Positions 6,057 to 62,081 of a stretch of DNA of 64,000 nt are shown piece after piece (the first letter of the stretch is position 1; the number at the start of each line of letters is the position of its first letter). A model generated the notes under the pieces. It searched no databases. It saw nothing but the letters and a program-made list of their open reading frames with translations, and had not been told where the DNA came from. A program made the translations under genes and the position numbers. The stretch covers positions 1 to 64,000 of the IMG/VR virus record IMGVR_UViG_3300047548_000738; one strand, written 5' to 3'. The stretch comes from a virus.

Positions 6057-6418
6057 CTACTGAAATTATTGTTTTCTTATTACTTCTCCAAATCAAGCAT
6101 TGGTATATTGATTTTGTAAATCAATCAGATATTGAAGTAAAGGGAAAAGGAATCTACGGAAACTATCATGGACTCATGCATAGTGCTAAGCATGGGTTAG
6201 GTACAATTATTTGTGCATTATTTGTAGCCGGACATACTTATATTATATTTGCAATCATATTAGGTATAGTCGATTTTGTAACACATTATCATATCGATTG
6301 GACTAAAATGAACTATGGTAATCGTGATATCAGCACACCCCAATTTTGGAACCATTTAGGACTAGACCAAATGGCGCACCAATTAGTCTATTTGCTGCTA
6401 GCATTTTTAATGAGTTGA
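6053..6418 (+). CDS. DUF3307-like membrane protein, 121 aa
   Basis: The protein has three or four membrane spans and the spaced charged residues typical of DUF3307: H16-W-x-x-D (KHWYIDF), HGLMHSAKHG, D near 79 with THYHIDW, and a final GLDQMAHQLVYLLLAF. Members occur in bacteria and phages and their role is unknown. It is the last plus-strand gene of the block and converges with the minus-strand genes, overlapping the next by 12 bases. Confidence 0.75.
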   Translation: MTTEIIVFLLLLQIKHWYIDFVNQSDIEVKGKGIYGNYHGLMHSAKHGLGTIICALFVAGHTYIIFAIILGIVDFVTHYHIDWTKMNYGNRDISTPQFWNHLGLDQMAHQLVYLLLAFLMS

Positions 6419-6721
6419 ACCAGCCTTTGGTACTATCAATTCTAACTTATCACCCACACCAATAACGCAAGTTATATCATTTTTTGTAGACAGTATAGTC
6501 CAAGTTTTTGAAGCGGGATTAACCCATAGTGACATTACTGTATTTGCAATGTCACTTGTTTTCCCCAACACAAATGGTATTTCTTTGTAATCTTTCTTCA
6601 AGGTATTGAAGATAATAGAAGTATCATCACAGGATATTTTGATATTGTGTTCTATTATCTCTGCGTTACTTACTAGTGGCGCGATAGACACCATCCCAAT
6701 CATTAGGTAAATTAGCTTCAC
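6407..6721 (-). CDS. small secreted protein, 104 aa
   Basis: Starts at GTG 6721 with AATAGGAG seven bases upstream. Residues 1-20 are a clear signal peptide ending SNA|EII, leaving a mature 84-residue periplasmic protein with two Cys (near 31 and 86) that could form a disulfide. The start lies inside the 3' end of the cyclase gene (56-base overlap), so translation is likely coupled. The block MSLWVNPASKTWTIL is of a kind I recall from uncultured phages. Possibly the secreted partner of the CHASE2 sensor, but this is inference from position. Confidence 0.65.
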   Translation of the reverse strand: MKLIYLMIGMVSIAPLVSNAEIIEHNIKISCDDTSIIFNTLKKDYKEIPFVLGKTSDIANTVMSLWVNPASKTWTILSTKNDITCVIGVGDKLELIVPKAGSTH

Positions 6722-8729
6722 GAAGTTCTCCTATTCTTTCAATCATCATATCATAGTAGTGGTCCATATTACTATCAAACTCACCTTTGAGTTTTTCTAG
6801 AAGATTTAACGCACTACTCCATTTTTGTTCACGATAATGGGCTAACATCAAGTCATGCAATTCTCGTGTCTGTAGATATTCGACCATAGAGTTACTATCT
6901 GTTTCTAGGACTGTGAATATATTGACCCCTTGTGTTTTACCTTTAACTGCGATGCAATCTAGTTCTAATACAAAATATTCATCTTTAATTTTTTCAGCGG
7001 TTAGAGCACCGATAACAATTCTGACACCATAGGGCTTAGACTGTCCCTCCAAACGGCTAGCAAGATTAACGCCGTCACCGAGACAAGTATAGTCAAACCT
7101 CTGACTAGACCCCATATTTCCAACAACAACAGTATCGGTGTTAATTCCCAAACCCATACCAAATGCCGGTACACCTTCTTTAGCAATTTCCATATTGAAC
7201 GCATCTAAACTCCCTAACATAGAGATTGCAGTCCTCACCGCATTGTGTGCGTGTCTTGGATCATCCAATGGCGCGTTCCAGAAAGCCATTTGTGCATCCC
7301 CTATATACTTATCTAGTGTACCTTCGTTCTCCAATATCTTAGCAGTCATTGCGGTCATGTATCTGTTCATTATTGATGTTAAGCCTTGTACATCTTTACC
7401 GTAATGCTCACTAATACCGGTGAAGCCTCTAACGTCTGTAAACATAATTGAAAGTTCACGTGACTCGCCGCCCAATGTCAGTAGTTCAGGATTCTTCTGT
7501 AACTTCTCTACAAGTGCAGGACTCAAATATGTTCCAAATTGTTTCTTTATTTGTTGTTTCTGTAAAAATTCGCTTATAAACTTGACACCATAGGCATGCA
7601 AAGAGACCAAGACTGTGCCACTAAGAACGGCAGTTGCATCAAATAAAAATAGATAGTTGCTGAACATATACTGGCTACCAACAACCACGCCAACACATAT
7701 AATAATAACCGACGCCAACCCGACATATATATACCTCGTTAAGAATAATAAAATTATACCCATTACTGCTATTGCGATTATTTCTAAACCGTCAGCGTAA
7801 TCAGGTCTTTGAATTACAACACCATTCATCATAGTGCCTATGACACTTGCTTGTAATTCATGTGGGAATACTGCACCAATGCTCGTTGGTACAGGATTAC
7901 TTAATCCAGCAGCAGTGGTACCGACAATTACTATTGCGCCATTCAAATCTTTTGGTAAGTTTGTCAAACTGTAGCTTTGACTTTTCTGGCTGTAATCAAT
8001 CCAAATACGACCTAAACTATCTGTTGCAATAGGACCAAATTTTGGTATACGCATCTTTTCTACGCCAAGTTCATTAAGTTTAACTTGAACAGTACTATCA
8101 CCAGCAGCTACTCGTAATGTCTCTATACTCAAGCTAGGATAGATTTTTCCGTCTACTGTTATCACTAATGGAATTCTGCGATTAACACCGTCTATTTCAG
8201 GTAACGTATTTGTGATGCCTATACCAGCTGCCGCATTTTCTACTATGGGAGTATTTGCAATTAGCCCCGGATACTGAACAATCATGTCAGTGTGTTGGCT
8301 ACCAACTACTGCACTTCCAGGATTTCTTGGTTTGTTTTTTGTTTGTTCGGCAGGACTACTAGGTAGTATAACAGGATATTTGTTTAGATACTGTGCAAAC
8401 CTATCGTCTTGGCCACTTCTATCAGGATTAGGCATAAGCACATTAAACACAACAAGACCGGCGTTCTTTTTATATAATTCTTCGATGATTTTTCCATATT
8501 CACCTCTGGGTAATGGCCATTGACCGTATTTTGATAAACTATCTTCGTCAATGTTAACAGTGATAATATTATTTTGGGTAATTTCTTTACTAACAATAAG
8601 AGTATCAAAATATCTTAATCGTACACTTTCAACAAATGTAGGATCTGTTGCTCTTACTCCGATAATTAAGGCCAATGTTGCTAAAGCAGTCCACGGACTT
8701 AGTAGAAGTTTTTTAATTATTTTTTTCAT
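6666..8729 (-). CDS. CHASE2-domain class III adenylate cyclase, 687 aa
   Basis: Membrane sensor making a cyclic nucleotide, most likely cAMP. Domains: one membrane span at 11-25, a periplasmic CHASE2 sensor at about 30-310 (ITVNIDEDSLSKYGQWPLPR is typical), a three-span membrane block at about 312-380 and a cytoplasmic class III cyclase at about 425-600. Catalytic residues are intact: metal Asp 432 (MFTD) and 478 (YIGD), purine-recognising Lys 474 and Asp 552, and transition-state Asn 555 and Arg 559 (VNLASR). Lys/Asp favours ATP over GTP. CHASE2 cyclases are often paired with FecR-domain proteins in bacteria, and here one is encoded 2.3 kb upstream. Full-length, no frameshift. Finding it in a phage-like genome is unusual. 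Confidence 0.92.
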   Translation of the reverse strand: MKKIIKKLLLSPWTALATLALIIGVRATDPTFVESVRLRYFDTLIVSKEITQNNIITVNIDEDSLSKYGQWPLPRGEYGKIIEELYKKNAGLVVFNVLMPNPDRSGQDDRFAQYLNKYPVILPSSPAEQTKNKPRNPGSAVVGSQHTDMIVQYPGLIANTPIVENAAAGIGITNTLPEIDGVNRRIPLVITVDGKIYPSLSIETLRVAAGDSTVQVKLNELGVEKMRIPKFGPIATDSLGRIWIDYSQKSQSYSLTNLPKDLNGAIVIVGTTAAGLSNPVPTSIGAVFPHELQASVIGTMMNGVVIQRPDYADGLEIIAIAVMGIILLFLTRYIYVGLASVIIICVGVVVGSQYMFSNYLFLFDATAVLSGTVLVSLHAYGVKFISEFLQKQQIKKQFGTYLSPALVEKLQKNPELLTLGGESRELSIMFTDVRGFTGISEHYGKDVQGLTSIMNRYMTAMTAKILENEGTLDKYIGDAQMAFWNAPLDDPRHAHNAVRTAISMLGSLDAFNMEIAKEGVPAFGMGLGINTDTVVVGNMGSSQRFDYTCLGDGVNLASRLEGQSKPYGVRIVIGALTAEKIKDEYFVLELDCIAVKGKTQGVNIFTVLETDSNSMVEYLQTRELHDLMLAHYREQKWSSALNLLEKLKGEFDSNMDHYYDMMIERIGELREANLPNDWDGVYRATSK

Positions 8730-8782
8730 GTGGTGTTCTCTTGTAGTGCCACCACCATATAAGGTAATTTCACTATAATCTA

Positions 8783-8929
8783 TTATTTATGATTTTTTGG
8801 AACCTTACCTGTTTCTTTAACTGTTTTCTTAGCTGCTTCTAGCATTTTTTCAGTAGCAGGACTTGTCCTATGATGGGGTAAATGCTTAGGTGGTTCTTTG
8901 ACTCTTGGACTTTTTCTATACCAGCTCAT
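8783..8929 (-). CDS. small basic protein, 48 aa
   Basis: Reads from ATG 8929 behind AGGAGAAAGTT. The peptide is Lys/Pro/His-rich (MSWYRKSPRVKEPPKHLPHH at the start) and ends in a Lys-rich helix; no membrane span. I recall similar short basic peptides from freshwater phage genomes, without function. It lies between the cyclase gene and a terminator hairpin. Confidence 0.6.
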   Translation of the reverse strand: MSWYRKSPRVKEPPKHLPHHRTSPATEKMLEAAKKTVKETGKVPKNHK

Positions 8930-8942
8930 AACTTTCTCCTAT

Positions 8943-8964
8943 AAAAAAGGCCCCTTTCGGGGCC
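8943..8964 (-). terminator. rho-independent terminator, minus strand
   Basis: On the minus strand GGCCCC-GAAA-GGGGCC is followed by TTTTTT. It follows the stop of the gene at 8968-9174 within four bases. It may lower, rather than abolish, transcription into the cyclase gene downstream. Confidence 0.85.
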
Positions 8965-8967
8965 ATA

Positions 8968-9174
8968 TTATGCATTAAGATATTTAGAAACTATTTCGTG
9001 TGCCTCATCGTAACTTGTTGCGTATATTTTGAATCTACCCTTGTTTTGTGAGACAAGTGGCTCATAAGGTATTACACCGCTGAGTTGCTTACCTTCGGGT
9101 ACCTCAACTTCAATAGTAAATTCACGCATTCTGTTAAATTTGTCTATAATTGCTTGTTGATTATACGTACTCAT
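8968..9174 (-). CDS. hypothetical protein, 68 aa
   Basis: A 68-residue soluble protein with an acidic middle and the central block TIEVEVPEGKQLSGVIPYEP. The start follows the previous stop by five bases. No recognised domain. Its stop is followed at once by a strong hairpin terminator. Confidence 0.6.
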   Translation of the reverse strand: MSTYNQQAIIDKFNRMREFTIEVEVPEGKQLSGVIPYEPLVSQNKGRFKIYATSYDEAHEIVSKYLNA

Positions 9175-9178
9175 AATT

Positions 9179-9712
9179 TTACATCCAAAGCCAAATACCT
9201 TGGCTCATTAAAATCGCACCTATTCCACTAACAGCAATACTCCCCCAGAATAGTGGCATACTAACAGCTAGAATACTAGCTGACAATAAAACAATACCCA
9301 ATTGATATGACATACCGCTAAACGTCATCCATGGACCTGACTTACGGATATGATCTCTCTCAGCTTCTAAAGCACGTGCTTTTGCCATTAGTTCTTTCTT
9401 TCCTTCACCAGTTTCAGGTTCAGATTCATAACGTGCAATCTTGGCTTTTAGTTTTTCAGCTTTTTCTTTATCACCGCGGGCTATCGCATCATCTAAACTT
9501 TGCTCAGCTAGTGTTTGTTTGATTGATTTAGCTTGGTAGAAACTCCAAGTATCATTGGCTTTAATTGTGTTGTTTAATACTTTACTAGAGTTACCGTTAG
9601 AAATATAAGTATTTACCGCAAGTAGTGCAGCAATTACGGTGATTACCCACCCTGCTTTATCTTTTATTTTTGCTTCTCTCTCGCTTCTAGATAATGGTTT
9701 TTTCTCTGACAT
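9179..9712 (-). CDS. DUF4337-like membrane protein, 177 aa
   Basis: One N-terminal membrane span at about 20-38, then NDTWSFYQAKSIKQTLAEQ, a block typical of DUF4337, then a charged coiled-coil (about 75-120) and two further hydrophobic spans near 130-177. Function of the family is unknown. It separates the curli cassette from the cyclase genes and has a CTAAATAT box and CTCC-complement ribosome-binding site just upstream of the start. Confidence 0.65.
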   Translation of the reverse strand: MSEKKPLSRSEREAKIKDKAGWVITVIAALLAVNTYISNGNSSKVLNNTIKANDTWSFYQAKSIKQTLAEQSLDDAIARGDKEKAEKLKAKIARYESEPETGEGKKELMAKARALEAERDHIRKSGPWMTFSGMSYQLGIVLLSASILAVSMPLFWGSIAVSGIGAILMSQGIWLWM

Positions 9713-9755
9713 AATTTCTCCTTTACTATATTTAGTGTAATATATAAATCTAGTT

Positions 9756-11018
9756 TTATTGTCTTATCACAGTAGTGCATCCTGCGGGATTAGTGCAACT
9801 TTGTATAATAGTAAAGTTCTTCCCACCTGATTGTTGAAGGTCCAGACTTGCAGGACCACCCGCATTAGTTAAATCAACGTTAGCATTGTTCCCTGTAGAA
9901 CCTGTTTGAGAAGATAGAACTGTATTTCCGTTGCCTGTTAACTTGTTTTCTAAATAATGATTGCCGGAACCTGATTGACTAGCAGTAATAGTATTGTTAC
10001 TACCGTTAATAGTGTTAAACATTAAGTTATTACCATTTCCTATCTGTGTGGCATTGATAGTATTACCCGTATAAGTATTGCTCATTATTTTAGTTTCTTG
10101 GTAATTCGATCCTGCGGTGTTGGATTGCGAAGATGTTAATTGATTTTGCGTTCCTTGCACTAGACCATTCAAATAATTAGTCCCTGTTTGGTCTGCGGAC
10201 ACTGTATTGCTACTACCGTTGAGTCCTAAATACATTGTGTTTTTTGATCCAGACTGAGTAATCGTAACAGAATTATAGTTCCCGCTAACTTGGTCTATGT
10301 AAAGATAATTATTCACATTGCTTGGATTAGCATTAGTACTCCAATTTGTTTGAGATGTAGTCTGTGCATTGGATGGACCTGCTGTACTAGAACTACCGCT
10401 TGTTATGACTTCTGTACCAGGACTGTTCGTTTGTGTGATTGTTCCACCGGTGATAGTGGGTCCTGATGGTGTTGGAGTAGCCGTGTATGTTTGTCCGGAT
10501 GCAAGTGGAGATGTACTACCATAACTGTTAGCAAACGAATCAACTTGTGATAATGTAGGGTTTAAAGTACCAGTCCAAGAATATCCGCTATTTCCTGTCA
10601 TACCGTAGTTAGCACTAAACAATTGTCCTGTATTATCATCATTACCGACAAAGAAGAATAGAGCGTATCCATTTGAGTCAACACCCATGTTTATAATTTT
10701 ACCAGTCCCCACTGTTCCTGCTAACGTTCCGTTGCTGTTATAAACATTAGCTGTGTAAGGATAAGAAGAATTGCCGCTTAGGGAAAATTTAACGTATTGC
10801 CCGGCTTGCCAGCTCCATTGCCCGTTATACCAAGGAATAGTATACATTGTTCCGGGCTGAGTGTAATATATGTTACAAGTGGAAGTATATAAGCAAGCAC
10901 CAACATCCCATTGAGAATCTGCAATTTGATACTGACCAAATTTTAAATCCGTGAAACTTACAGCCCAAGATGCGATACTGCACAAAGATAACACTAATCC
11001 AAGAAGAAATTTCTTCAT
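9756..11018 (-). CDS. secreted curlin-repeat protein with an extra N-terminal domain, 420 aa
   Basis: Signal peptide at 1-19 (ending SWA|VSF). Residues about 20-165 form an unrecognised Tyr/Trp/Gly-rich domain with a CLYTSTCNIYY Cys pair, followed by a Thr/Pro linker. The C-terminal half (about 230-405) carries curlin-type repeats of the form Q-x-G-x-x-N, for example ITQSGSKN, ADQTGTN, ATQIGNGNN, ASQSGSGN and SSQTGS. Such repeats stack into the amyloid beta-solenoid of CsgA/CsgB. It ends in a Cys-containing tail. Its start overlaps the FecR-type gene (ATGA), so the two are coupled. Likely an adhesin-curlin or minor subunit exported through CsgG. Confidence 0.8.
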   Translation of the reverse strand: MKKFLLGLVLSLCSIASWAVSFTDLKFGQYQIADSQWDVGACLYTSTCNIYYTQPGTMYTIPWYNGQWSWQAGQYVKFSLSGNSSYPYTANVYNSNGTLAGTVGTGKIINMGVDSNGYALFFFVGNDDNTGQLFSANYGMTGNSGYSWTGTLNPTLSQVDSFANSYGSTSPLASGQTYTATPTPSGPTITGGTITQTNSPGTEVITSGSSSTAGPSNAQTTSQTNWSTNANPSNVNNYLYIDQVSGNYNSVTITQSGSKNTMYLGLNGSSNTVSADQTGTNYLNGLVQGTQNQLTSSQSNTAGSNYQETKIMSNTYTGNTINATQIGNGNNLMFNTINGSNNTITASQSGSGNHYLENKLTGNGNTVLSSQTGSTGNNANVDLTNAGGPASLDLQQSGGKNFTIIQSCTNPAGCTTVIRQ

Positions 11019-12124
11019 CTTTGTACCACTGTAATAATTGTATTGCCACCATTATTGATGCGGTTCTTAAACTCTAACGTACCTTGTGTTTGGTACAATG
11101 TTGAGTTTTGAGTTAATGGTGTAGTTATGCACTGTATATCAGCGCCACTGTCTCTACATAATTGTATAGTTGGATCTTCTTTTACTACTACGATTCCACT
11201 ACTTTTTCTGTAATCCGGTATTACGGAATCAATCTGTGCTAACAAATTTTCATTCAACGCATTACCTATAATGTCAAATAGGCTTGCTAAAAAGCTATTG
11301 GATAAAAAGTTTCTTTCTAATTGAGCGTAGAAGAATTGTTTGTTTTGTTCGTCTAGTGCATTCTTTAATTCATCTTTGTCTAGTGCATTAAAGTCTAGCG
11401 GATTCCAAATTTTTGTCTCTGCTGCTTGTGAATTTTTGATCTCTTTCGGGGGACTCAATATCAATAAATTACTAATTGCCATCTCAGACAAATTTAATAT
11501 AACAGGCTTGGTGGGTTGATCGCTCCTGCTATTTACTTTAGTCACTTGAAATGGTTGGTTTAATATAACAGATCCAACATCAGTTATAACTTCAATTTCT
11601 CCTGTCTTACAAGCAGCCTCAATATCTTTTACTGTTCTAGTAGGACGATCATTTGGACAACTAGGTAATAAAATTATAGTTGATTCACCAAGTTCTTCTA
11701 CAGTGGCAGTAAAATCTGTACCGCGGACAGCAATAGTAGCACTAGGAGTATTAAGTGAAACGGATCTAGGGTTGTTGTGAGCAATGGCTCCACTAGCGTA
11801 CCTAACTGTGCCAAGAGCGACTTTAGCACCAAGTTTACCTGCTTTATTTTTTGGATCATAAACAAAATCATCAATTACTAGTTTAGAATTTTCATTAACT
11901 TGAACACGTGTACTATCTTCAAATGTGATACCTACTTTACCTTGTTGGGTTTTTATGGCATCATTCATTTCAACACTAAACCCTTTTGTCCCCTGTAATG
12001 ATGCTTTGTCTCTTTGAATAGTAGCCACTGCATTAACTTGTTCTGTTACTGTGCCAATAGCGGCATTACAAATTGATGCCGCTGCTGAGAAACAAAGAAA
12101 AATTAATACGTTACATAATTTCAT
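11015..12124 (-). CDS. secreted FecR-domain protein, 369 aa
   Basis: Signal peptide at 1-21, then a FecR domain at about 45-165, with GKVGITFEDSTRVQVNENS and SATIAVRGTDFTATV as diagnostic blocks. FecR domains are periplasmic sensory or polymer-contact modules, and in bacteria they often sit beside CHASE2 sensors. The C-terminal half is helical (LDEQNKQFFYAQLERNFL) and has a Cys pair near the end (LCRDSGADIQC). It is encoded between two curlin-repeat genes and shares a four-base overlap with the second. A role as sensor of fibre assembly is inference. Confidence 0.85.
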   Translation of the reverse strand: MKLCNVLIFLCFSAAASICNAAIGTVTEQVNAVATIQRDKASLQGTKGFSVEMNDAIKTQQGKVGITFEDSTRVQVNENSKLVIDDFVYDPKNKAGKLGAKVALGTVRYASGAIAHNNPRSVSLNTPSATIAVRGTDFTATVEELGESTIILLPSCPNDRPTRTVKDIEAACKTGEIEVITDVGSVILNQPFQVTKVNSRSDQPTKPVILNLSEMAISNLLILSPPKEIKNSQAAETKIWNPLDFNALDKDELKNALDEQNKQFFYAQLERNFLSNSFLASLFDIIGNALNENLLAQIDSVIPDYRKSSGIVVVKEDPTIQLCRDSGADIQCITTPLTQNSTLYQTQGTLEFKNRINNGGNTIITVVQR

Positions 12125-12125
12125 G

Positions 12126-13076
12126 TTAGTTTTTCTGTAGTATGGTATAGCTATTATTATTTCCTGTTATTTTAACATTTGACAAATTATCAACTGATCC
12201 CTGTTGGGTAATTGACAAATTATTGCTTGATCCGTTAATTAGTAGTTGAGTATTTTGTCCTGCACTAGCGCCACCGCTCTGAGCCAAAACAATTACGTTG
12301 TTGCTGCCAGTGCCGGTATAGTTAAATATGTTATCGTATAAACCACTTTGAGTAACTGTAGTGTCGTTACCACTACCAGTAAGATTTATATTCACTGTAG
12401 CACCATTAACTCCACCACCGCTCTGATTAATGTCAATCAAGTTAGCAGCACCGATACTAGCAATTAATACTTGACCTTTGTTACCTGTCATACTTACTGT
12501 AGTTTCATTTCCGCCACCACCAGTCTGATTAATAGTTGTTACTGTTTCGCTTGCATTGATATTTGCTGTTAGCTTGTTACCACTTCCGCCTGCTGAAGTG
12601 TATGATAGTTGATTGCTTGTACCTGTCATACGTAAATCAACATTACCCCCACCGTCTTGCGTAATTCCAATCACGTTGCCTGCTGAAGTACCTAACCCGT
12701 TGTTGTTAACGTTAATGTAACCTGTGTTGTTGCTACCAGTTACTTCATAATTCAAATTAGCACCGATGTTAGTATAATTTGGTACTGTGCCACCTTGCGT
12801 AGAAGTAATCCCCAAAGACAATACGTTATTAGTACCCGTTTGTTGAATGTTAACTGTTTGGGCATCACCTGCTAACTTAGCAGAATCTGTAGTGCCTCCG
12901 GGCGTTCCGTTGATCAGAATTCCCTTTACTTTATTACTAGAACCATCTTGAGTAATAGTTATTGTACTATTATCCCCTGCTTGGTCTATATACACACTGT
13001 TGTCAGCGGCAATGCCGTTGAAAGAAACCATTGCACTTATTAGTAATGCTATTATATTTTTATATGGTTTAACCAT
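12126..13076 (-). CDS. curlin-repeat (CsgA/CsgB-like) protein, 316 aa
   Basis: Signal peptide at 1-23 (ending IAA|DNS). The mature protein is almost wholly Gly/Asn/Gln/Thr-rich with Q-x-G-x-x-N repeats: IDQAGDN, ITQDGSSN, IQQTGTNN, ITQDGGGN, INQTGGGGN, INQSGGG, VTQSGLYDN, LAQSGG and ITQQGS. In CsgA each strand-loop-strand repeat carries Gln and Asn that stack in the amyloid. It is longer than E. coli CsgA (about 150 aa), so it would hold more repeats. It lies directly downstream of csgG, which would form its export channel. Confidence 0.85.
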   Translation of the reverse strand: MVKPYKNIIALLISAMVSFNGIAADNSVYIDQAGDNSTITITQDGSSNKVKGILINGTPGGTTDSAKLAGDAQTVNIQQTGTNNVLSLGITSTQGGTVPNYTNIGANLNYEVTGSNNTGYINVNNNGLGTSAGNVIGITQDGGGNVDLRMTGTSNQLSYTSAGGSGNKLTANINASETVTTINQTGGGGNETTVSMTGNKGQVLIASIGAANLIDINQSGGGVNGATVNINLTGSGNDTTVTQSGLYDNIFNYTGTGSNNVIVLAQSGGASAGQNTQLLINGSSNNLSITQQGSVDNLSNVKITGNNNSYTILQKN

Positions 13077-13112
13077 TTTAGTTCTCCCGGATGCTTATGC
13101 ATCTTTTTGTTA

Positions 13113-13910
13113 TTATTCTTCTTTTATGTACCCCCATAAACCTTTTCTTTCGCCGTCTTTGATTAACTCAACAACGGCTGCTTCAATAGCTGATTTAACA
13201 GCGTAGGTCCCTGGTTCGTTTATTGTCATACCCATTTCTGCTTCAAACGATCTTGTACCTGCATCAAAAAATCTTAATGCTGAAACACTATCTGCTGAAC
13301 TGAGTATTGTTTTTTGTACTGTCACTGAAGTTAACACTTTTCCAGTGTTTACTGAAATTGCACGAACACTTACAGTTACTATATCCTCAGAGTATTGACT
13401 TTGCGGTCCAATGCCTAACCAACGCATTGCGACTCCACCTGACTTCGTGCTGCTGTCATATCCTACAATACCGCCTTCTACTATGATACCAGCAAATTGC
13501 ATAGGCATCAAAGGTTTGGCATCTTTACCTTCGTATGATTCACGCATTTGGCGAATAATTAAACGTTCTTTTGTTATGTTATCTAAGCCAACACGTTCTA
13601 CAACATCAAACCATTTTCCTTGACCAACATCTTGTAATGCTTTAATCAAAAATGTTTCGGCACCTTGTGTTACCGCAGTTGATAAACTAGCGATGTTGGC
13701 AGTAGGTCTACGCTGCCCAGTTAAATCTCTAAAGTTATAAACAGCCACACTAATTTTCTTCCCATTACTTGGGCCCGGAATAGTGTCGAATTCCTTCTGC
13801 ATCATTACTTTAGATACTTCAGGTTTTATCTCCGGAGTCAAAGGATTAAACTGAGTAATTGCACACCCACTTAGAGTAATTGCCACTAGGACTAATATCA
13901 TGTTCTTCAT
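13113..13910 (-). CDS. csgG: CsgG, curli outer-membrane secretion lipoprotein, 265 aa
   Basis: CsgG makes the nonameric outer-membrane channel for curli subunits. The lipobox LSGC places the lipidated Cys at 16. The family core is strongly conserved: ISVAVYNFRDLTGQ, LSTAVTQGAETFL, IIVEGGIVGYDSSTKSGGVAMRWLGIG (given here in two parts of one block), TILSS and a C-terminal GLWGYI. Length (265) is close to E. coli CsgG (277). By eye, the Tyr/Asn/Phe trio that lines the E. coli pore constriction (PYPASNF) is replaced by PTANIASL, so the eyelet may have a different width or chemistry. It is flanked by csgF and curlin genes on the same strand. Confidence 0.95.
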   Translation of the reverse strand: MKNMILVLVAITLSGCAITQFNPLTPEIKPEVSKVMMQKEFDTIPGPSNGKKISVAVYNFRDLTGQRRPTANIASLSTAVTQGAETFLIKALQDVGQGKWFDVVERVGLDNITKERLIIRQMRESYEGKDAKPLMPMQFAGIIVEGGIVGYDSSTKSGGVAMRWLGIGPQSQYSEDIVTVSVRAISVNTGKVLTSVTVQKTILSSADSVSALRFFDAGTRSFEAEMGMTINEPGTYAVKSAIEAAVVELIKDGERKGLWGYIKEE

Positions 13911-13913
13911 ACA

Positions 13914-14459
13914 TTAGTTCCCCGGTATTTGAAAACTAGACAAAGGAATGTATATACAACTCATTCCTATATCTGTGCATAATGCACTTGCTGGGTTAGT
14001 AGCGGTATTATCACCGATTTTCATTAAAATGCAAGTTCCATTTGGAGATCCTACACAGTTACTAGCGTCACTGACTCTGCTCCAACCAATATAATTTCCT
14101 TGGAAATTTATCTGCCCGGAACAATTAGTAGTAGCATCTGACGTATTGCATTGATTGTTAGCAAACATAGCAGTCGCTACGTTTTGGGAAATTTGTGCGT
14201 ATATACGACTTTCTAAGTTGTTTATGAACTTCAGTAAATTGGTGCTATTTTGCGCTGATGCTGCTTTATCTATTGCAGCCTGTACGGCGTCAGCACGAGC
14301 TTTTTCGGCTTGTTGTTCTAGGTTATAAATCGTTAGGGTGTGGGAACTGTATCCCTGTCCGTTAAATGATGGGCTTTTGAACTGATAATCACCCAATGGT
14401 GCAGCAATAGCTGCCGTAATCATCATCATAAGAAAGCCTATTATAATTCTTGGTTTCAT
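13914..14459 (-). CDS. csgF: CsgF-like curli assembly protein, 181 aa
   Basis: CsgF plugs the outer end of the CsgG pore and links it to the nucleating subunit. Signal peptide 1-19 (ending AIAA|PLG). The mature N-terminus YQFKSPSFNGQGYSS matches the CsgF N-terminal segment that enters the channel (FQF.NP.FGG in E. coli), and LLKFINNLESRIYAQIS matches its helix. The rest is longer than E. coli CsgF and adds six Cys, which would form disulfides. It is four bases upstream of csgG. No CsgE or CsgC gene lies nearby. Confidence 0.85.
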   Translation of the reverse strand: MKPRIIIGFLMMMITAAIAAPLGDYQFKSPSFNGQGYSSHTLTIYNLEQQAEKARADAVQAAIDKAASAQNSTNLLKFINNLESRIYAQISQNVATAMFANNQCNTSDATTNCSGQINFQGNYIGWSRVSDASNCVGSPNGTCILMKIGDNTATNPASALCTDIGMSCIYIPLSSFQIPGN

Positions 14460-14541: not shown

Positions 14542-14823
14542 ATGAGTGATGTTTTTAAACTAATAGGTGATTTGGGTTTCCCCATAGCAGTTGCATTGGC
14601 GGGTGGTTATTTTGTATACTTAACTATAAAGTTACTTCTACAAGGAGTTTTGGGTAGTATCAATGGAATGAAGGGCATTATTGTTGCTTTAGATAACCGA
14701 GTAAAAACAATGAACCACGATGTTATCCGAATCGACACAATCGTAAGTAACGCTTTAGGTTTGAAGCCCGACGTAGATCGTATTGCCCGCTCAGATGGTA
14801 AGAACGATGCAAGGCGTGATTGA
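14542..14823 (+). CDS. holin-like small membrane protein, 93 aa
   Basis: I start at ATG 14542 behind ACGAGG. One membrane span covers about residues 11-33 (GFPIAVALAGGYFVYLTIKLLL), followed by an amphipathic region and a coiled-coil-like helix ending in charged residues. That arrangement matches the phage holin-like proteins whose N-terminal span begins with GFPI. A second protein of the same plan is encoded at 15004. Function is inferred from topology only. Confidence 0.6.
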   Translation: MSDVFKLIGDLGFPIAVALAGGYFVYLTIKLLLQGVLGSINGMKGIIVALDNRVKTMNHDVIRIDTIVSNALGLKPDVDRIARSDGKNDARRD

Positions 14824-15026
14824 TGAAACATTTAGATTTTGATTGGGATATAGAAGATTGGGGTATCACATTTGATGACGAATTGAATCTTGCAAAATTC
14901 GGTTGGGAAGACGGAGATTATTTTAAATTTGTAATAATTGATGGTAAGCGGTATCTTAAAAAAGTAGACAAACTAGAAGAATTTATATTAAAGGGAGTAG
15001 AAGATGGATGTAGTAGAACTAATTAA
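14823..15026 (+). CDS. small acidic protein, 67 aa
   Basis: ATG 14823 overlaps the previous stop by one base (TGATG). The peptide is Asp/Trp-rich (FDWDIEDWG), soluble and of unknown function. It overlaps the next gene by 23 bases. Short DW-rich proteins like this recur in the window. Confidence 0.55.
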   Translation: MKHLDFDWDIEDWGITFDDELNLAKFGWEDGDYFKFVIIDGKRYLKKVDKLEEFILKGVEDGCSRTN

Positions 15027-15363
15027 CAAATATGGTTTCCCTATAGTTATGTCAGTGGGCATGGGCTATATTATCAAGTATGTATGGGAGTGGAGTACGA
15101 AAGAAGTCAAGCCTGTTATTAGTGAAGCAAACACTGTGCTTATTGCCCTTATAGACCGTATACGAATGCTAGATAATGACTTGATTAGACTAAACCAAAA
15201 AGTCAACACAGTCTTGCATTTACGTGGTAAGATTATTGAATCTGACCGAGTTATGGAACAAGTAAAAGTTGAGACAGAAGCCAAAGACAAATTCGAAAAA
15301 GCAATGACTCACAAAAAAGTTGACCCTGATGATGAAAAAACAGCAGCAGCTGGTGAAGGATAA
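15004..15363 (+). CDS. holin-like membrane protein, 119 aa
   Basis: Same layout as the protein at 14542: an N-terminal span with GFPIVMSVGMGYIIKYVWEW, then a helix with a heptad pattern (ALIDRIRMLDNDLIRLNQKV) and a charged C-terminal tail. The shared GFPI-span and DND-I-RL-pattern suggest the two arose by duplication. One may be the holin and the other an antiholin or spanin-like partner; this is inference. It starts at ATG 15004 inside the previous gene. Confidence 0.55.
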   Translation: MDVVELINKYGFPIVMSVGMGYIIKYVWEWSTKEVKPVISEANTVLIALIDRIRMLDNDLIRLNQKVNTVLHLRGKIIESDRVMEQVKVETEAKDKFEKAMTHKKVDPDDEKTAAAGEG

Positions 15364-32427: not shown

Positions 32428-32646
32428 TTAGAATAGTTTGGGAGGAAGCTGCTGGTCACGCAAGTGTTTTTTCCAACGACGGACTGCTTGGTTTTTTGCA
32501 ATTTTTCTTTTTACTGCGGGTTTAACAAATTCTTGTCTATCTTTTAGTTCCTGTAGTAAACCCGTGTCAGTGATTTTCTTTTTTAATTTTCTTAGTGCCT
32601 TTTCCCAGTTTCCGTCATGCACTTGTACTCGTCTTCCTTTTGTCAT
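32428..32646 (-). CDS. rpsU: ribosomal protein bS21, 72 aa
   Basis: bS21 is a small-subunit protein that sits near the anti-Shine-Dalgarno region, and phage copies are thought to change which mRNAs are started. The basic helical protein ([21 protein letters not shown], then [24 protein letters not shown]) matches the family over its length. Its start overlaps the clpX stop, so it is coupled to clpX. Together with IF-1 at 17475 this makes two phage-encoded initiation factors. Confidence 0.93.
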
Positions 32647-33839
32647 ATTAATATTGTAGGGTTAATAACCTGCTCCTTTGTAATATTTAGTGTTTTTATG
32701 TTATTTTCTTTATATATTCTAGTATTATACATATGACACATTAATACTCGTTCGATTTCTGTATGTAATCCACGTGCACCTGTTTTTAAACTTAGCGTAT
32801 TTTCTGCAATTTGTTCTAAAGCATCAGGGGTGAATGTCAACTCAATTCCGTCTAGTTCAAACAAGTACGAATATTGACTGATATAATTGTTTTTAACGTC
32901 AGTGAGAATTTTGACTAATTGTTCCTTCGACAATTCATCAATACTCACTGTTGTAGTAAATCTACCGATGAATTCTGGAATCATGCCAAATTTAGTAAGA
33001 TCATCGGGAGTAACTTCCTTCAACGAACCTTCTAGTTTAACGTCTTTAACAGTAGCACTGAAACCGATACTTCCACCGTCTTTACGTTTTTGCACCAGTT
33101 CTTTCAATCCTACAAAAGCACCACCGGCAATAAACAGAATGTTTTTAGTATCAATTTCTAACATATCTGCTCCTGGGTGTTTTCTCCCACCTTGACCAGA
33201 AACTCTACAAATAGTTCCCTCAACAAGTTTAAGTAATGCTTGTTGTACTCCCTCACCTGATACATCACGGGTAATACTAGTCGATTCTCCTTTGCGGGCA
33301 ATTTTGTCAATCTCATCGATGAAAACAATACCGCGTTCTGCAAGGGCCTTATCACCACCTGCAGCATTTAGTAGCATATTAATCATGGATTCTACATCAT
33401 CACCTACATATCCTGCTTCGGTTAAACTAGTAGCATCAGCAATTACAAATGGTACTTGTAGATATTTTGCCGCAGTTTTCGCCAACAACGTTTTACCGGA
33501 ACCAGTTGGCCCTAATATTAATACATTGCCCTTTTGCATTTCAAGATTTTTGGGTGGGTTAGTAATTCTCTTATAGTGGTTAGCTATAGCAACACTTAGC
33601 ACCATTTTGGCATCATCTTGCCCTATGATGTGAGTATCTAAATAACTTTTAATTTTGTCTGGGTAATACTCTGGCAATGTATCTTCTTTTATGGATTGAT
33701 CATCTTGTATAAGATCCTCACACAATGAAACACAGTCGCTACAAATGGCAACGTTATCACCCACAATTAATTTTTTAACTACATCTTTGCTGTTACCGCA
33801 AAAACTGCAATGATTGATTGGTTTTAGTTCTTCGGACAT
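32643..33839 (-). CDS. clpX: ClpX, ATP-dependent unfoldase, 398 aa
   Basis: Unfolds substrates and feeds them to ClpP. N-terminal C4 zinc domain at 11-36 (C-x-x-C...C-x-x-C: HCSFCGN and ICSDCVSL), Walker A GPTGSGKT (near 111), Walker [11 protein letters not shown] (near 175), the sensor 2 region and a [10 protein letters not shown] near the end. The IGF-like loop that docks to ClpP should lie after the second strand (IGFSATVKD), with GFSAT present. Length is slightly shorter than E. coli ClpX (424). Confidence 0.95.
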
Positions 33840-57930: not shown

Positions 57931-58791
57931 CTATGCAGTATACTTTTGTCTTTGTTTAATGTCAACACGCATTAGGTCCTGAATCGAATACTTTTGTATC
58001 ATGTATGGACTCACTTCTTCCAAAACACTACATGGCAGGTCACCTTTTCTTCTAGGTCCATAGTTAACATCAAAGTCACAGTTATTTACTTCTTGGAAAA
58101 TATTAACCATTTCTCTGACAGTGTGACCTACTCCGTGACCCAAACATTCAATCTTGTTACTAGGATTTTTGATTGCTAATTTTAGTGCTTCGCAAATTTC
58201 ATTAACATGCACGTAATCACGCACACATGTACCATCCCAAGATTGTTCGTAGTCTTTCCCAAAGATAGTGAATGAGCCAGTCTTCATGGCTTTCATGAGA
58301 TTGAACATAAGTCCATCTGGGTTAGTAGGGAATATTCCTTCAAATCCTACTACGTTATAGAACCTAAATGTTGTATAGTCAATGCCGCGCTTCTTACATA
58401 ATTCCCAAACAACATCTTCTGCGGCTCTTTTGCTGACACCGTATGCAGAACTACATCCTTCAGCAGCACCAGTACTAGCAAATACAAAGTTCTTTGCATC
58501 GATAAAATTTAGTACGTTCATTGTACCAATCAAGTTTGTAGTGTAATAGTCAACGGGAACTTTTTCACTTTCACCTACATTTACTAAGGCAGCTAAATGA
58601 ATTACTGTATCAAACTCAGGTTGAATCACAAAAGGTTGCGTGATATCCATAATGTACTGAGTATGCACGGGAACTTGTGGCTTTACTTTATCTAAACCTG
58701 TTACATGAAATTCGTCATCTTTCATTAATAGTTGTGAAAGATAAGATCCTATATATCCAGAATTTCCTGTAATTAAAACTTTGTGTGTCAT
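57931..58791 (-). CDS. NAD-dependent sugar epimerase (GalE-like), 286 aa
   Basis: Extended short-chain dehydrogenase. The NAD motif GNSGYIGS (near 9-16) is a variant of GxxGxxG, and the catalytic Y-x-x-x-K reads YGVSKRAAED (near 118), preceded by Ser in FASTGAAEG. The order resembles UDP-glucose 4-epimerase, but the substrate is not certain. It is coupled to the glycosyltransferase gene upstream (ATGA), so the pair probably makes one glycan. Confidence 0.85.
   Translation of the reverse strand: MTHKVLITGNSGYIGSYLSQLLMKDDEFHVTGLDKVKPQVPVHTQYIMDITQPFVIQPEFDTVIHLAALVNVGESEKVPVDYYTTNLIGTMNVLNFIDAKNFVFASTGAAEGCSSAYGVSKRAAEDVVWELCKKRGIDYTTFRFYNVVGFEGIFPTNPDGLMFNLMKAMKTGSFTIFGKDYEQSWDGTCVRDYVHVNEICEALKLAIKNPSNKIECLGHGVGHTVREMVNIFQEVNNCDFDVNYGPRRKGDLPCSVLEEVSPYMIQKYSIQDLMRVDIKQRQKYTA
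57937..57965 (-). promoter_or_regulatory. sigma70-type promoter for uvsE, near-leaderless
   Basis: TTGACA (57960-57965), 17 bp, TATACT (57937-57942). The predicted start site is around 57930, one base from ATG 57929. The box lies inside the epimerase gene. Confidence 0.65.
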
Positions 58792-60122
58792 AGTCCCTCA
58801 AATAATGAATTTGATTTTTCTTCAGTTGGTTCAAATGAAGGGTCTTTAGTCAAATAAGTATCGGTATCAGTATATATAACTCTGAATTTATGTTTGTTCG
58901 TTAACACGCTTCGTATATCGTCTATACAAATAATCTTACGATCCAAATCTTTAACATAATCTTCTAATTTTACTGTGGTCTCACTGCAAATCTTTGCGGT
59001 GTTATTATTAGATTCTTTTGGCTTAAACGTATTGAAACATTCATTCCATTTATGAAATACTGTTGATTCTTGTTGTCTAGCATGGGCTAATGAACCCAGT
59101 AAATACCAGGTGCTTGCGTTTTCAAAACTGTCATATAAATCTTTAGCACGTTTAGCCATGTCCTTCTTTGTGCAACTATAAAAGAAATCGTCATTAAAGT
59201 TTTTAGTCCAACGTTGTTCTGTTAAAACTAATGTCGGTAGTTGAATATGTTGTTCATAGAATGCCATCCCGTAACTCTCGACAACACTTGGGTTAAAAGC
59301 AATTCGTGAACTCTTAATGAAATCGACTTTCTCTTGTCCAACAATACTAGCACGAACATCATATGTTGCACCAATCTTTTTTAAGCGTTCTTCAAACTTT
59401 TTAACACCGTTTGGGCTTGTCATTACTTTAGCAGGCAATCCAGTTTGTTCAATCAAATCAATAAACAACTCAGGATTTTTACCTTCTTCCCATCGTCCTA
59501 CAAATAATACACCCTCACGCTCACCGTGATATTCTTCCAATAATGAACGTTCAGTAATGGGTATAGGAAGATGAAATGCAGATTCATCTAAGTTAAGTTG
59601 GTTGAATTTGCTTTGTGTACCTACATCAATATTAGGAATGCTTAGCTGGTGTCGCATCAATTCGTTAGTATTGTGTAAGAAAGGATTCTTTGTGTCTTTA
59701 AAAATTTGACTTTCTAAATGAGTATACGCAATAACTTGAATCACATCTTCTAGACCCATTGTGCTTGCTACTTGAACCGTTTCGTATGTGTTACAGATAA
59801 GTGCATCATACAAATTATGTTCTAACGCATTAACAATCGCATTGCGGAAGTTAGCCATGCGCTCATAACAAAATGTATCACCATACATAAAGATGTTGCT
59901 GTGATCCGTGTAGGACAATGAGTTTACCGGAGAAATAATATTAGCTTTTAGAGATTTTACAAAATCATTATCCTTAGGTTCTTTATCCGTGATAATATCT
60001 ACTTTGATATTATGTTCGTCCATCAACTCACAAAAACTTTTTGCGAATTGCCCAATACCACCGTGAGGTATCAATGTTTGATAACTCACTAAAAAACCAA
60101 TACGCTTATCGTATGTTCTCAT
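58788..60122 (-). CDS. glycosyltransferase of the GT4 (GT-B) type, 444 aa
   Basis: Transfers a sugar from a nucleotide-sugar donor. N-terminal GGIGQFAKSFCELMDEH is the acceptor domain start, and the C-terminal donor domain carries VLFVGRWEEGKNPELFIDLI and NPSVVESYGMAFYEQHIQLP, where the E-x7-E pattern of GT4 enzymes is recognisable. Coupled to the epimerase gene on one side and to an acidic gene on the other. It could modify phage DNA, LPS or a virion protein; the acceptor is not visible. Confidence 0.85.
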   Translation of the reverse strand: MRTYDKRIGFLVSYQTLIPHGGIGQFAKSFCELMDEHNIKVDIITDKEPKDNDFVKSLKANIISPVNSLSYTDHSNIFMYGDTFCYERMANFRNAIVNALEHNLYDALICNTYETVQVASTMGLEDVIQVIAYTHLESQIFKDTKNPFLHNTNELMRHQLSIPNIDVGTQSKFNQLNLDESAFHLPIPITERSLLEEYHGEREGVLFVGRWEEGKNPELFIDLIEQTGLPAKVMTSPNGVKKFEERLKKIGATYDVRASIVGQEKVDFIKSSRIAFNPSVVESYGMAFYEQHIQLPTLVLTEQRWTKNFNDDFFYSCTKKDMAKRAKDLYDSFENASTWYLLGSLAHARQQESTVFHKWNECFNTFKPKESNNNTAKICSETTVKLEDYVKDLDRKIICIDDIRSVLTNKHKFRVIYTDTDTYLTKDPSFEPTEEKSNSLFEGL

Positions 60123-60751
60123 CCTAGGTTGACTCTACCACCGCACTCAGGGCAAACATATGCACCCTTGTCATCATCGTTTGGATTGTCTACTAAGTCG
60201 TTGATATCCTCAGTACTATATCCACAATCTTCGCAAGTAAATTCTGCTAATTCAGTTTCTTCACTACTAGCATTTGTAAAGGGCCATACAGCACCTGTTT
60301 TAGGTAGTGCTTGCTCAGTATCTGCGTCTTCTTCCTGATTTGTTTCGACAAGTTCGCCACATGTGCCATCTTCGTTTAATTTTCTAATTTCAAGGTCACA
60401 GTCAATAATCATTTCACACTCATCTTGACTCCAACCATGTTCTTCAAGGTCAAGCCAACTATTACCTTCATCAAAAAATTCTTCTAACCATTCGCGGGTT
60501 TCGTCATCTACATCATCGTAATCATACTCTTCCCAACAACCATCGGTTGTTTCAATTAACTCAGTTTCGTAGTCACAATTGTAGATATCCACACCTGCTT
60601 CGATTTTTGGTGGATTGTCATCGTCAGTATATACTAAAAATTCACCCCAACGCCATCCCGTTTCTACCATAAAAGTTTGACCATCTTTAACAAGATAGTT
60701 ACGTTCAATGATAGATTTTTTCCATGATGGTTTTACACTCCACTCTGCCAT
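60119..60751 (-). CDS. acidic protein of the WPF family with C-terminal zinc ribbon, 210 aa
   Basis: Very acidic (YDYDDVDDETREWLEEFFDEG), with the blocks RWGEFLVYTDDD and YNCDYETELIET shared with 40938, and VWPFTNAS. The C-terminal C-x-x-C...C-x-x-C (FTCEDCGYS and YVCPECGGR) is a zinc-ribbon. It has the composition of a DNA-mimic, but that is unproven. ATGA overlap with the glycosyltransferase gene. Confidence 0.6.
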   Translation of the reverse strand: MAEWSVKPSWKKSIIERNYLVKDGQTFMVETGWRWGEFLVYTDDDNPPKIEAGVDIYNCDYETELIETTDGCWEEYDYDDVDDETREWLEEFFDEGNSWLDLEEHGWSQDECEMIIDCDLEIRKLNEDGTCGELVETNQEEDADTEQALPKTGAVWPFTNASSEETELAEFTCEDCGYSTEDINDLVDNPNDDDKGAYVCPECGGRVNLG

Positions 60752-60754
60752 GAT

Positions 60755-60982
60755 TTACTCCTTAAAAGTATCGTTAATTAATCTAATGCATTCTTGCACA
60801 ATTCTAGGATTAAAGCAAGCATCAAAAGTAGTATAGGTAACCTTTCTATAGTCACCGTTCTCTAATACTTTAACACATTCTTCTACAACCATTTCGCCGA
60901 ATTTTTCTAGTAATGCTCCACCCACATCTGGGTAATGACTACCGCCCACTTCTAGTGCTATTTCTTTAAATTTTTGTTTCAT
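60755..60982 (-). CDS. EKFxEMVVEEC family protein, 75 aa
   Basis: Start by ATGA at 60982. The core LLEKFGEMVVEECVKVLEN matches the EKFAELIVKEC family (3293, 39046). The C-terminal part differs (FDACFNPRIVQECIRLINDT). Function unknown. Confidence 0.6.
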   Translation of the reverse strand: MKQKFKEIALEVGGSHYPDVGGALLEKFGEMVVEECVKVLENGDYRKVTYTTFDACFNPRIVQECIRLINDTFKE

Positions 60983-61218
60983 TTTGTAAGTTTCCATAAC
61001 ATGAATTTGTTTCTATCAATCCAGTAATCTTCATATACTGGATCTCCGGGACCGGTAATCATACGAACACCGTGATAGGCTTTCTTTCCCCATAGTTGCT
61101 TTCCTGTTAGAAAACAAGTATTAGGGCGCCAGCATAGTTTGTACTTCCAGTTTTGTACTTTGTTTAAGCCCCAATCTTCTTCACGCGGAGCTCCTGATAC
61201 TTCTCCATCAAGCATCAT
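60979..61218 (-). CDS. hypothetical phage protein, 79 aa
   Basis: ATG 61218 overlaps the queE stop. Sequence MMLDGEVSGAPREEDWGLNK and RPNTCFLTGKQLWGKKAYHG, Trp-rich. Similar short proteins follow queE-type genes in some phages I recall, but a role in the pathway is not shown. Confidence 0.55.
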   Translation of the reverse strand: MMLDGEVSGAPREEDWGLNKVQNWKYKLCWRPNTCFLTGKQLWGKKAYHGVRMITGPGDPVYEDYWIDRNKFMLWKLTK

Positions 61219-62081
61219 GTACCCCACTCGTTCTTAAACAATGGAACTTGAAGTCTGTCACTATAACGCAATCCATGCTTCATTGCTAAATCTGCAACTC
61301 TGCGATTATTAAGACTATAGACATTTTCTACACCACCAACTGGCATCAAATATACAGGACCTTTAAATCCTGCGTTGCGATACTCATTAGTTGCTTCTAA
61401 TGCTTCGTCAACATCATCATGTATAGCTACTACGAACTTTAAGTAAGTGTAACCAACATCCTCATACTGCATGATAACATCAGGACGAATTGCATCTTCC
61501 CATTTTTCACCGCTGTTACTTAGTTTAGGACTTACGCTGAATGTCAAGCTATCACGACCTCGGCGACCACCAGGAGTACCGCGGGGATTCAAAGTCCAGT
61601 TCAACAAATAGTGTCTGAACTCTTTACTCAAATCTTGTGTACCGTTTGTTTCAAACGTCAACTCTTTCAAATCCTGCATTTTTTCGTGATTCAGCAAATC
61701 AGGATAAGCACGTTGCCAACCCAGTAATGGTTCACCGCCTGTAATTACCAAGTGTTCTTCACGCCAAGTTTTGAAAGGAAGAATATCAGTAATGCTTTCG
61801 GCAAGACTATCAGTACTGAGTACAGGAGAAAGATGCTTAAACCTAACATCCCAACTAGCATATGAATCGCATCCTGTAGATACGAGGGGCAAATCTTTAT
61901 AATTTTTAATATTGTCTGCGTCAATCTTGTTTCTTTCTTCACTAATAGTTCCCGCGGGCATTCCAAAACCGCCGCATGTAAAGTTGCAACCAAACGTGCG
62001 TAAGAACACGCTTGGTACGCCCATGTAACGACCTTCACCCTGGATACTATAAAATAATTCTGCTACTTTAATTTGTGACAT
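61215..62081 (-). CDS. queE: QueE-type radical SAM 7-carboxy-7-deazaguanine synthase, 288 aa
   Basis: Makes 7-carboxy-7-deazaguanine in queuosine or deazaguanine-DNA synthesis. N-terminal motif SIQGEGRYMGVPSVFLRTFG and C-x-x-x-C (CNFTC, near 32-36) are seen, but the third Cys of C-x3-C-x2-C is not at its usual place (Phe instead). After about 35 extra residues the sequence resumes with TGCDSYASWD, which resembles the usual WCDS-x-F-x-WD, so the third ligand may come from there. GGEPLLGWQ and FETNGTQDL are intact. It is encoded near queD. Confidence 0.82.
   Translation of the reverse strand: MSQIKVAELFYSIQGEGRYMGVPSVFLRTFGCNFTCGGFGMPAGTISEERNKIDADNIKNYKDLPLVSTGCDSYASWDVRFKHLSPVLSTDSLAESITDILPFKTWREEHLVITGGEPLLGWQRAYPDLLNHEKMQDLKELTFETNGTQDLSKEFRHYLLNWTLNPRGTPGGRRGRDSLTFSVSPKLSNSGEKWEDAIRPDVIMQYEDVGYTYLKFVVAIHDDVDEALEATNEYRNAGFKGPVYLMPVGGVENVYSLNNRRVADLAMKHGLRYSDRLQVPLFKNEWGT

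Follow-up and report, generated by a model that had tools for sequence, protein, structure and literature searches.

Why would a virus carry genes for the export of bacterial amyloid? The question is raised by a cassette in IMG/VR virus record IMGVR_UViG_3300047548_000738, a fragment of 83,732 bases, of which bases 1-64,000 (the window) were analysed. On the minus strand, at 6407-14459, the window encodes a CsgF-like protein, the pore protein CsgG, two curlin-repeat proteins, a FecR-domain protein and a CHASE2 - class III nucleotide cyclase. With a probability of about 0.58, the cassette is read here as a phage-encoded type VIII (curli-like) secretion system that would place adhesive amyloid with exchangeable heads on the infected cell, while the cyclase would report the state of the envelope as cyclic AMP (cAMP). 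The purpose of phage curli is disputed, sibling capture, uptake and a lysis pore all having been proposed, and the curlins described here are real, selected genes.

A curli-type cassette in a viral genome

The genes named in a sequence-only reading of the window were all found in place, and ten open reading frames (ORFs) fitted its description by Pfam and phrog matches. The CsgF-like protein (13914-14459, 181 amino acids; PF10614, 3e-07; phrog_35372, 2.9e-37) is encoded next to the lipoprotein secretion pore CsgG (13113-13910, 265 amino acids), which carries the CsgG-family pore domain (PF03783, 7.2e-50; phrog_20175, 2.2e-87). These are followed by the first curlin-repeat protein (12126-13076, 316 amino acids; PF07012, 6.9e-06, in two stretches), with a signal peptide-like N-terminus, the secreted FecR-domain protein (11015-12124, 369 amino acids; PF04773, 5.2e-10) and the second curlin (9756-11018, 420 amino acids; PF07012, 1.4e-06). 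The cyclase (6666-8729, 687 amino acids) matched PF05226 at 1.1e-41, PF00211 (Guanylate_cyc) at 7.7e-17 and phrog_35576 at 1.7e-242. CsgF, CsgG and curlin repeats are shared with bacterial curli (type VIII secretion, e.g. the alphaproteobacterial csg loci). CsgG would form an outer-membrane pore and CsgF its cap, and the two secreted curlin-repeat proteins would be the clients.

The cassette lies in a viral setting, in a record that encodes a T4-type DNA polymerase, a DNA ligase, a dCMP deaminase and an exonuclease; a 5'-3' deoxyribonucleotidase and a QueE-like gene are also among its surroundings. The polymerase, in the part of the record beyond the window, had its best full-length matches in jumbo phages (48-50% identity), namely Sinorhizobium phage Phosso (469 kb) and Agrobacterium phage Atu_ph07 (490 kb). 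Another contig with the cassette (L013) has 265,680 bases, so some carriers exceed 200 kb.

Fusion of a host curli operon to a phage contig during assembly is a negligible explanation. G+C is even across the cassette, without a change in base composition, and an independent contig (L022) has the same layout, with a pair of small genes beside csgF and a gene for a 104-residue protein after the cyclase. Similar CsgG proteins were found in 79 further viral contigs and six phage isolate records, the window CsgG being 51-77% identical to its viral-contig relatives. In the CsgG tree, a branch with 99/96 support parts the phages, phage-like contigs from metagenome-assembled genomes (MAGs) and Hyphomonas TMED17 from ordinary bacterial CsgG. 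Within the viral sequences, the window CsgG falls in a set of 19 rows (99/96), and the HTVC008M/Melnitz group of SAR11 and OM43 phages lies outside it.

The window CsgG is the short form, without the SH3-like C-terminal extension that is common among its relatives. Among 64 distinct ORFs for viral CsgG, 28 are longer than 340 amino acids (L009, L010, L013, L017, L048 and others). The long forms that were inspected contain a linker rich in proline and lysine and end in a bacterial SH3-like domain (SH3_4, 4e-05 in L010, slightly under the cut-off), which perhaps contacts peptidoglycan. CsgG is also encoded by OR851715.1, a 1.5-kb record named 'Salmonella phage S.Kent 1-2-1', possibly host DNA deposited as phage.

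Conservation, selection and origin

Relatives of CsgG were sought in 2.9 million viral contigs; 96 were found, and 80 loci were kept. FecR was encoded within 3 kb of CsgG in all 58 loci having enough sequence. A full cyclase lay at most 10 kb from CsgG in 34 of 37 loci, and the other three loci are closely related to one another. The ratio of nonsynonymous to synonymous substitution rates (dN/dS) was estimated by the Nei-Gojobori method for pairs of moderate divergence, which are not independent of each other. Median values were 0.10 for CsgF, 0.14 for CsgG, 0.12 for the first curlin, 0.10 for FecR, 0.15 for the second curlin and 0.12 for the cyclase. Both curlins are thus maintained proteins. 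Since all six genes are kept as protein, explanations by a pore only, which presume that fibre genes are absent, are weakened.

Pairwise identities of CsgF and FecR follow those of CsgG closely (rho 0.81 and 0.82), and looser tracking was observed for the stalk of the second curlin and the CHASE2 half of the cyclase (both rho 0.40).

The bacterial side of the family looks different. Of 80 bacterial csgG matches, 73 were in loci that lack both FecR and a CHASE2 cyclase and usually encode several curlins. The remaining seven group with the phages in the tree, and of these only that of Hyphomonas is on a clearly cellular contig. In that 705-kb contig of Hyphomonas sp. TMED17 (L091), CsgF, CsgG, a curlin, FecR and a CHASE2 cyclase stand among cellular genes; it differs in its G+C of 52%, in that no second curlin was seen, and in a very long CsgG branch. 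The joined operon therefore occurs in a cell at least once. Hyphomonadaceae were considered as a common lineage of the module and rejected, as only one of 105 genomes had it, and a single cellular case is no proof of a donor. Six contigs binned in bacterial MAGs (L085, L086, L087, L089, L095 and L096; bins Rhodobacteraceae Water_Bin34, Flavobacteriaceae, Pirellulales and Pelagibacter) have cassettes of the phage type and group with the phages in the tree. They are probably phage contigs binned with their hosts.

The two curlins and the exchangeable heads

Curlin repeats were found in both secreted subunits. The first curlin is likely to be a plain fibre subunit. The second is built of an N-terminal head (about residues 20-180), a curlin stalk and a conserved C-terminal cysteine pair. 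Alignment of its family showed that the Gln/Asn ladder positions are conserved and that the cysteine pair is invariant. The length of this protein ranges from 186 to 852 amino acids across relatives, the short forms having no separate head. Pfam identified F5/8C heads in five loci (L005, L015, L074, L076, L083) and PA14 heads in three (L003, which is HTVC008M, L030 and L084). The alignment also showed head segments held in common that are joined to differing further domains ahead of one common stalk. By eye, the heads of L009, L029, L033 and L032 also seemed to contain PA14-like stretches, but Pfam did not confirm them and they were not counted. The head in the window was modelled with a predicted local distance difference test score (pLDDT) of about 90 in blocks.

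A protein displayed for binding would be expected to combine a conserved stalk with a swapped head in this way. Because a variable N-terminal head sits on a curlin stalk, the second curlin probably displays an adhesive, and probably glycan-binding, domain. The likely benefit would be that infected cells are glued to other cells or to surfaces, or that the surface is masked. Blocking of superinfection by an altered surface, instead of gluing of cells, would require the same anatomy, and competing phages or receptors could drive the variation of the heads. PA14 and F5/8C, however, are usually ligand binders and not shields, and such a block is considered quite unlikely. Swappable heads extend to cultured phages, as shown by the PA14 head of HTVC008M.

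The FecR-domain protein

In the structure model (mean pLDDT 75), the FecR protein has a signal peptide-like start, the FecR domain, a helical linker and six short strands at its C-terminus. The single signal-like helix directly precedes the FecR domain. Pfam found the FecR domain in 48 of 48 relatives, and an anti-sigma N-domain of the FecIR/PupIR type was absent from all 48. Foldseek matched the fold to the periplasmic signalling domain of PupR and to the cell-surface anchoring domain of an adhesin (5ix9; 0.72 of target by template modelling score, E 0.014). Cellular relatives were searched for in 385 alphaproteobacterial genomes. After Hyphomonas, 18 of the 20 best matches were in open frames of 518-6,913 amino acids, and RTX or cadherin-like repeats were present in four of ten scanned frames. 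In its closest cellular relatives, the domain forms the N-terminus of a large surface protein, often of RTX/cadherin type, and FecR is thus likelier an envelope anchor or a periplasmic partner or sensor than an iron regulator. It differs from those relatives in being a separate protein of 369 amino acids, whereas in the large alphaproteobacterial surface proteins FecR is the N-terminal part of one chain. The C-terminus (GGNTIITVVQR) was tried as a curlin strand and rejected; profile comparison gave a probability of 1-4% against curlins, and unrelated controls reached up to 10%.

In the published annotation of Wittmers et al. (PMC9599517), FecR is an iron-dependent regulator, and small upstream histidine kinases together with cAMP control curli expression. 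The PupR match is in line with that annotation. The signal peptide-like start and the lack of the anti-sigma domain speak against it, as does the finding that the cassette-side proteins of 93-119 amino acids, described below, match no kinase family. It is thus regarded as very unlikely. At the envelope, the FecR protein would most likely serve as an anchor or a periplasmic partner and not as an iron-dependent anti-sigma regulator.

According to the sequence-only reading, FecR and CHASE2 proteins are often paired in bacteria, and such a pairing is real. In the BiofilmReg operon of Burkholderiales, which is linked to biofilms, a secreted LysM-FecR gene adjoins a CHASE2 histidine kinase (PMC5192318). 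The likeness lies in a secreted FecR protein encoded beside a CHASE2 sensor; the differences are the histidine kinase output from CHASE2, the LysM on FecR and the description of that operon without curli genes. In view of this operon, a FecR-CHASE2 sensory pair is plausible for the cassette.

The CHASE2 cyclase

The catalytic residues of a class III cyclase are present in the window protein: the metal-binding aspartates D432 and D478, the substrate lysine K474, T548, and the transition-state residues N555 and R559. D432, K474, D478 and R559 were conserved in 33 of 33 aligned cyclases, while the asparagine was replaced by serine in 19 of them. The phage cyclases fall into two catalytic subtypes, the window protein being of the K/T/N subtype. 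The lysine of the substrate site suggests adenosine triphosphate as the predicted substrate. The cyclase was encoded on the opposite strand in three of 36 loci. In seven of the 36, including the window, a strict terminator was located between the second curlin and the cyclase.

From the inner membrane, the CHASE2 cyclase would sense a periplasmic signal, for which FecR or the export state is plausible, and may produce cAMP for a host receptor. A phage-encoded protein binding cyclic nucleotide monophosphates, as a cAMP receptor, was found in none of nine records, so any such receptor would be that of the host.

A stand-alone ORF of about 102-136 amino acids upstream of csgF matched only the cyclase tail (about residues 569-681) and is a free copy of the tail domain. 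It was present in L027-L029, L031, L038-L042, L044-L046, L049, L051, L060-L062, L068 and L077, and was not seen in the window.

The small membrane-protein pair

The sequence-only reading ended the cassette at 14459. The genes at 6407-14459 belong to it as proposed, but that end was set too early, because two small membrane-protein genes on the opposite strand also belong. Protein A (14542-14823, plus strand; phrog_18771, 3.7e-29) and its paralogue B (15004-15363, plus strand; phrog_18771, 3.2e-28) are encoded in tandem and divergently from csgF. Protein A has one hydrophobic segment and a coiled-coil-like tail. Of 23 carrier records tested, 22 encoded phrog_18771, 21 of them twice, and all 14 control genomes lacked it; in a set of 50,697 phage records, it was confined to the six curli carriers. 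The pair stands upstream of csgF in HTVC008M, Melnitz and the window, and elsewhere past the second curlin or past the cyclase. It is part of the module. Wittmers et al. (PMC9599517) stated that one or two histidine kinases ('HK') always come before csgF; judged by position and number, these are probably the phrog_18771 pair.

For CsgGF of Melnitz, Buchholz et al. (PMC9004378) put forward a role in the timing of lysis. CsgG and CsgF would then be a gated pore or a pinholin-like channel that depolarises the cell, with the small pair as holin-like helpers and the curlins secondary. The constant company of the pair fits this proposal, and so does a weak resemblance to the holins of phrog_4898, with E values from 0.0001 to 0.13 for four among eight pair members tested; those of the window pair (0.0054 for A and 0.0026 for B) fell short of the cut-off. 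Protein A also matched YvrJ of Pfam, below the cut-off (0.0041), and a Pfam holin match above the cut-off was not obtained for the pair. The proposal had taken the curlins as missing, but both exist in the window and in Melnitz and HTVC008M, under purifying selection; moreover, an outer-membrane CsgG pore alone would not depolarise the inner membrane. Lysis timing as the main function is therefore judged unlikely.

The pair enters also into a wider proposal, which is tentative and on the doubtful side. The cassette would encode a dedicated phage adhesion organelle, with an amyloid stalk, ligand-binding heads diversified like the tips of tail fibres, FecR as the anchor, and the cyclase and holin-like pair tied to the timing of infection or lysis. 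If this were true, phages would build a surface organelle on a dying cell that recruits the next host.

Evidence against amyloid export

Several results weigh against export of an adhesive amyloid reported by a linked cyclase. No direct observation of a fibre has been made so far, and infected cells did not clump in the case of Melnitz (Buchholz et al. 2022, PMC9004378). The Pfam scores of the curlin repeats are modest, and the head in the window gave neither a named Pfam domain nor a significant match to a solved structure. The 5ix9 match of FecR is weak, and weaker than that of PupR. The basis for contact between FecR and CHASE2 is gene neighbourhood only. The cyclase domain tracks its partners poorly (rho 0.18 with CsgG, 0.17 with FecR). 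CsgE was not found in the record or in eight other records.

The absence of CsgE had been noted from the window and was borne out by this search. In the enterobacterial curli type, the periplasmic adaptor CsgE is present. As it was not found here, the cassette is placed with the CsgE-less viral and alphaproteobacterial curli type and not with the enterobacterial one. CsgE is absent from viral and alphaproteobacterial modules (PMC9599517). Its absence may leave the pore standing open, which would suit a role of CsgG/CsgF in admitting larger nutrients or cofactors to infected cells, as suggested by Zaragoza-Solas et al. (PMC7029224) and Wittmers et al. (PMC9599517). Such uptake leaves two conserved curlins, the swapped adhesive heads and CsgF unexplained, and is a highly improbable function of the cassette.

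The identity correlations, catalytic subtypes, strand and terminators together indicate a fixed core, CsgF-CsgG-curlin-FecR, with a nearly constant but exchanged cyclase. Independent variation of the neighbours, named in advance as a refuting result, was not seen for CsgF, CsgG and FecR; it was seen in part for the cyclase, which is nearly constant and recombining.

Comparison with known viral curli clusters

The CsgF/CsgG operon was reported by Zaragoza-Solas et al. 2020 (PMC7029224), who put forward 'sibling capture' for it. Wittmers et al. 2022 (PMC9599517) described viral curli clusters with curlins, FecR, 'HK' and an adenylate cyclase, together with cluster transfer between phage families and an ocean-wide presence. 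The sequence-only reading had proposed amyloid export with a linked cyclase, and named CsgG in some marine T4-like phages but no such joined module. Architecture, conservation and selection support the function; novelty does not stand, since the joined module has been published (PMC9599517), with every gene annotated in Melnitz and some of them in HTVC008M. In a tblastn search of the 50,697 phage records, the combination of CsgG, FecR and a full-length cyclase was limited to Pelagibacter phage HTVC008M and the Melnitz phages, with the same order as in the window (CsgF-CsgG-curlin-FecR-curlin-cyclase).

The window resembles the pelagiphage cluster (HTVC008M; HTVC023P-type podophages) in gene order and in the lack of CsgE. 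It differs in its CsgG clade, in a protein identity of 38-47% over CsgG, FecR and the cyclase, in the inserted DUF4337 and small genes, in a terminator ahead of the cyclase, in the divergent pair and in the jumbo-type DNA polymerase. Methylophilales phage Melnitz (MZ577097) has an identical gene set and order, but its CsgG and cyclase are 46% and 40% identical to those of the window, and its cyclase is of the K/D/S subtype.

New here are a separate phage clade whose polymerase is of the jumbo type, exchangeable heads on the second curlin, a cyclase with loose linkage to the core, FecR of the adhesin type and a small membrane pair that is constant. The module is now also known from phages with a jumbo-type DNA polymerase, beyond the SAR11 and OM43 phages of the first descriptions. 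A report of csgG in jumbo phages was not found in a partial literature search, in which absence is no proof.

Other features of the cassette and the window

The remaining features at 6407-14459 are also on the minus strand. A DUF4337 membrane protein (9179-9712, 177 amino acids; PF14235, 1.4e-28) is an accessory, with its gene also near the cassette in L016, L021, L022 and L062. It is followed by a 68-residue ORF (8968-9174) without a Pfam or phrog family match. An intrinsic terminator-like hairpin, GGCCCC-GAAA-GGGGCC (GGCCCCGAAAGGGGCC), followed by T6, is located at 8949-8964. This strong hairpin parts the cyclase from the rest, and the genes at 6407-14459 are therefore probably not one transcription unit. 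Between the terminator and the cyclase is an ORF for 48 residues (about 8783-8929). A small secreted-type protein of 104 amino acids (6407-6721, GTG start; phrog_25396, 1.2e-06) overlaps the cyclase end. Its relatives in 12 viral loci are encoded between the second curlin and the cyclase or directly after the cyclase.

No transfer RNA that might serve host prediction was found in the 64-kb window, and the Rfam search gave no match. The T4 late-promoter motif TATAAATA had no occurrence in the window (1-64000), against 6.2 expected from shuffles, which suggests that it is avoided. As a clue to expression of the cassette it was dropped, because a motif missing from the entire window is uninformative on the cassette. 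The QueE-like radical SAM gene (61215-62081, phrog_2076) and its neighbours (57931-62081) could be concerned with 7-deazaguanine modification of DNA. A ClpX-like ATPase is encoded at 32643-33839 (phrog_4339, ATP-dependent protease matches).

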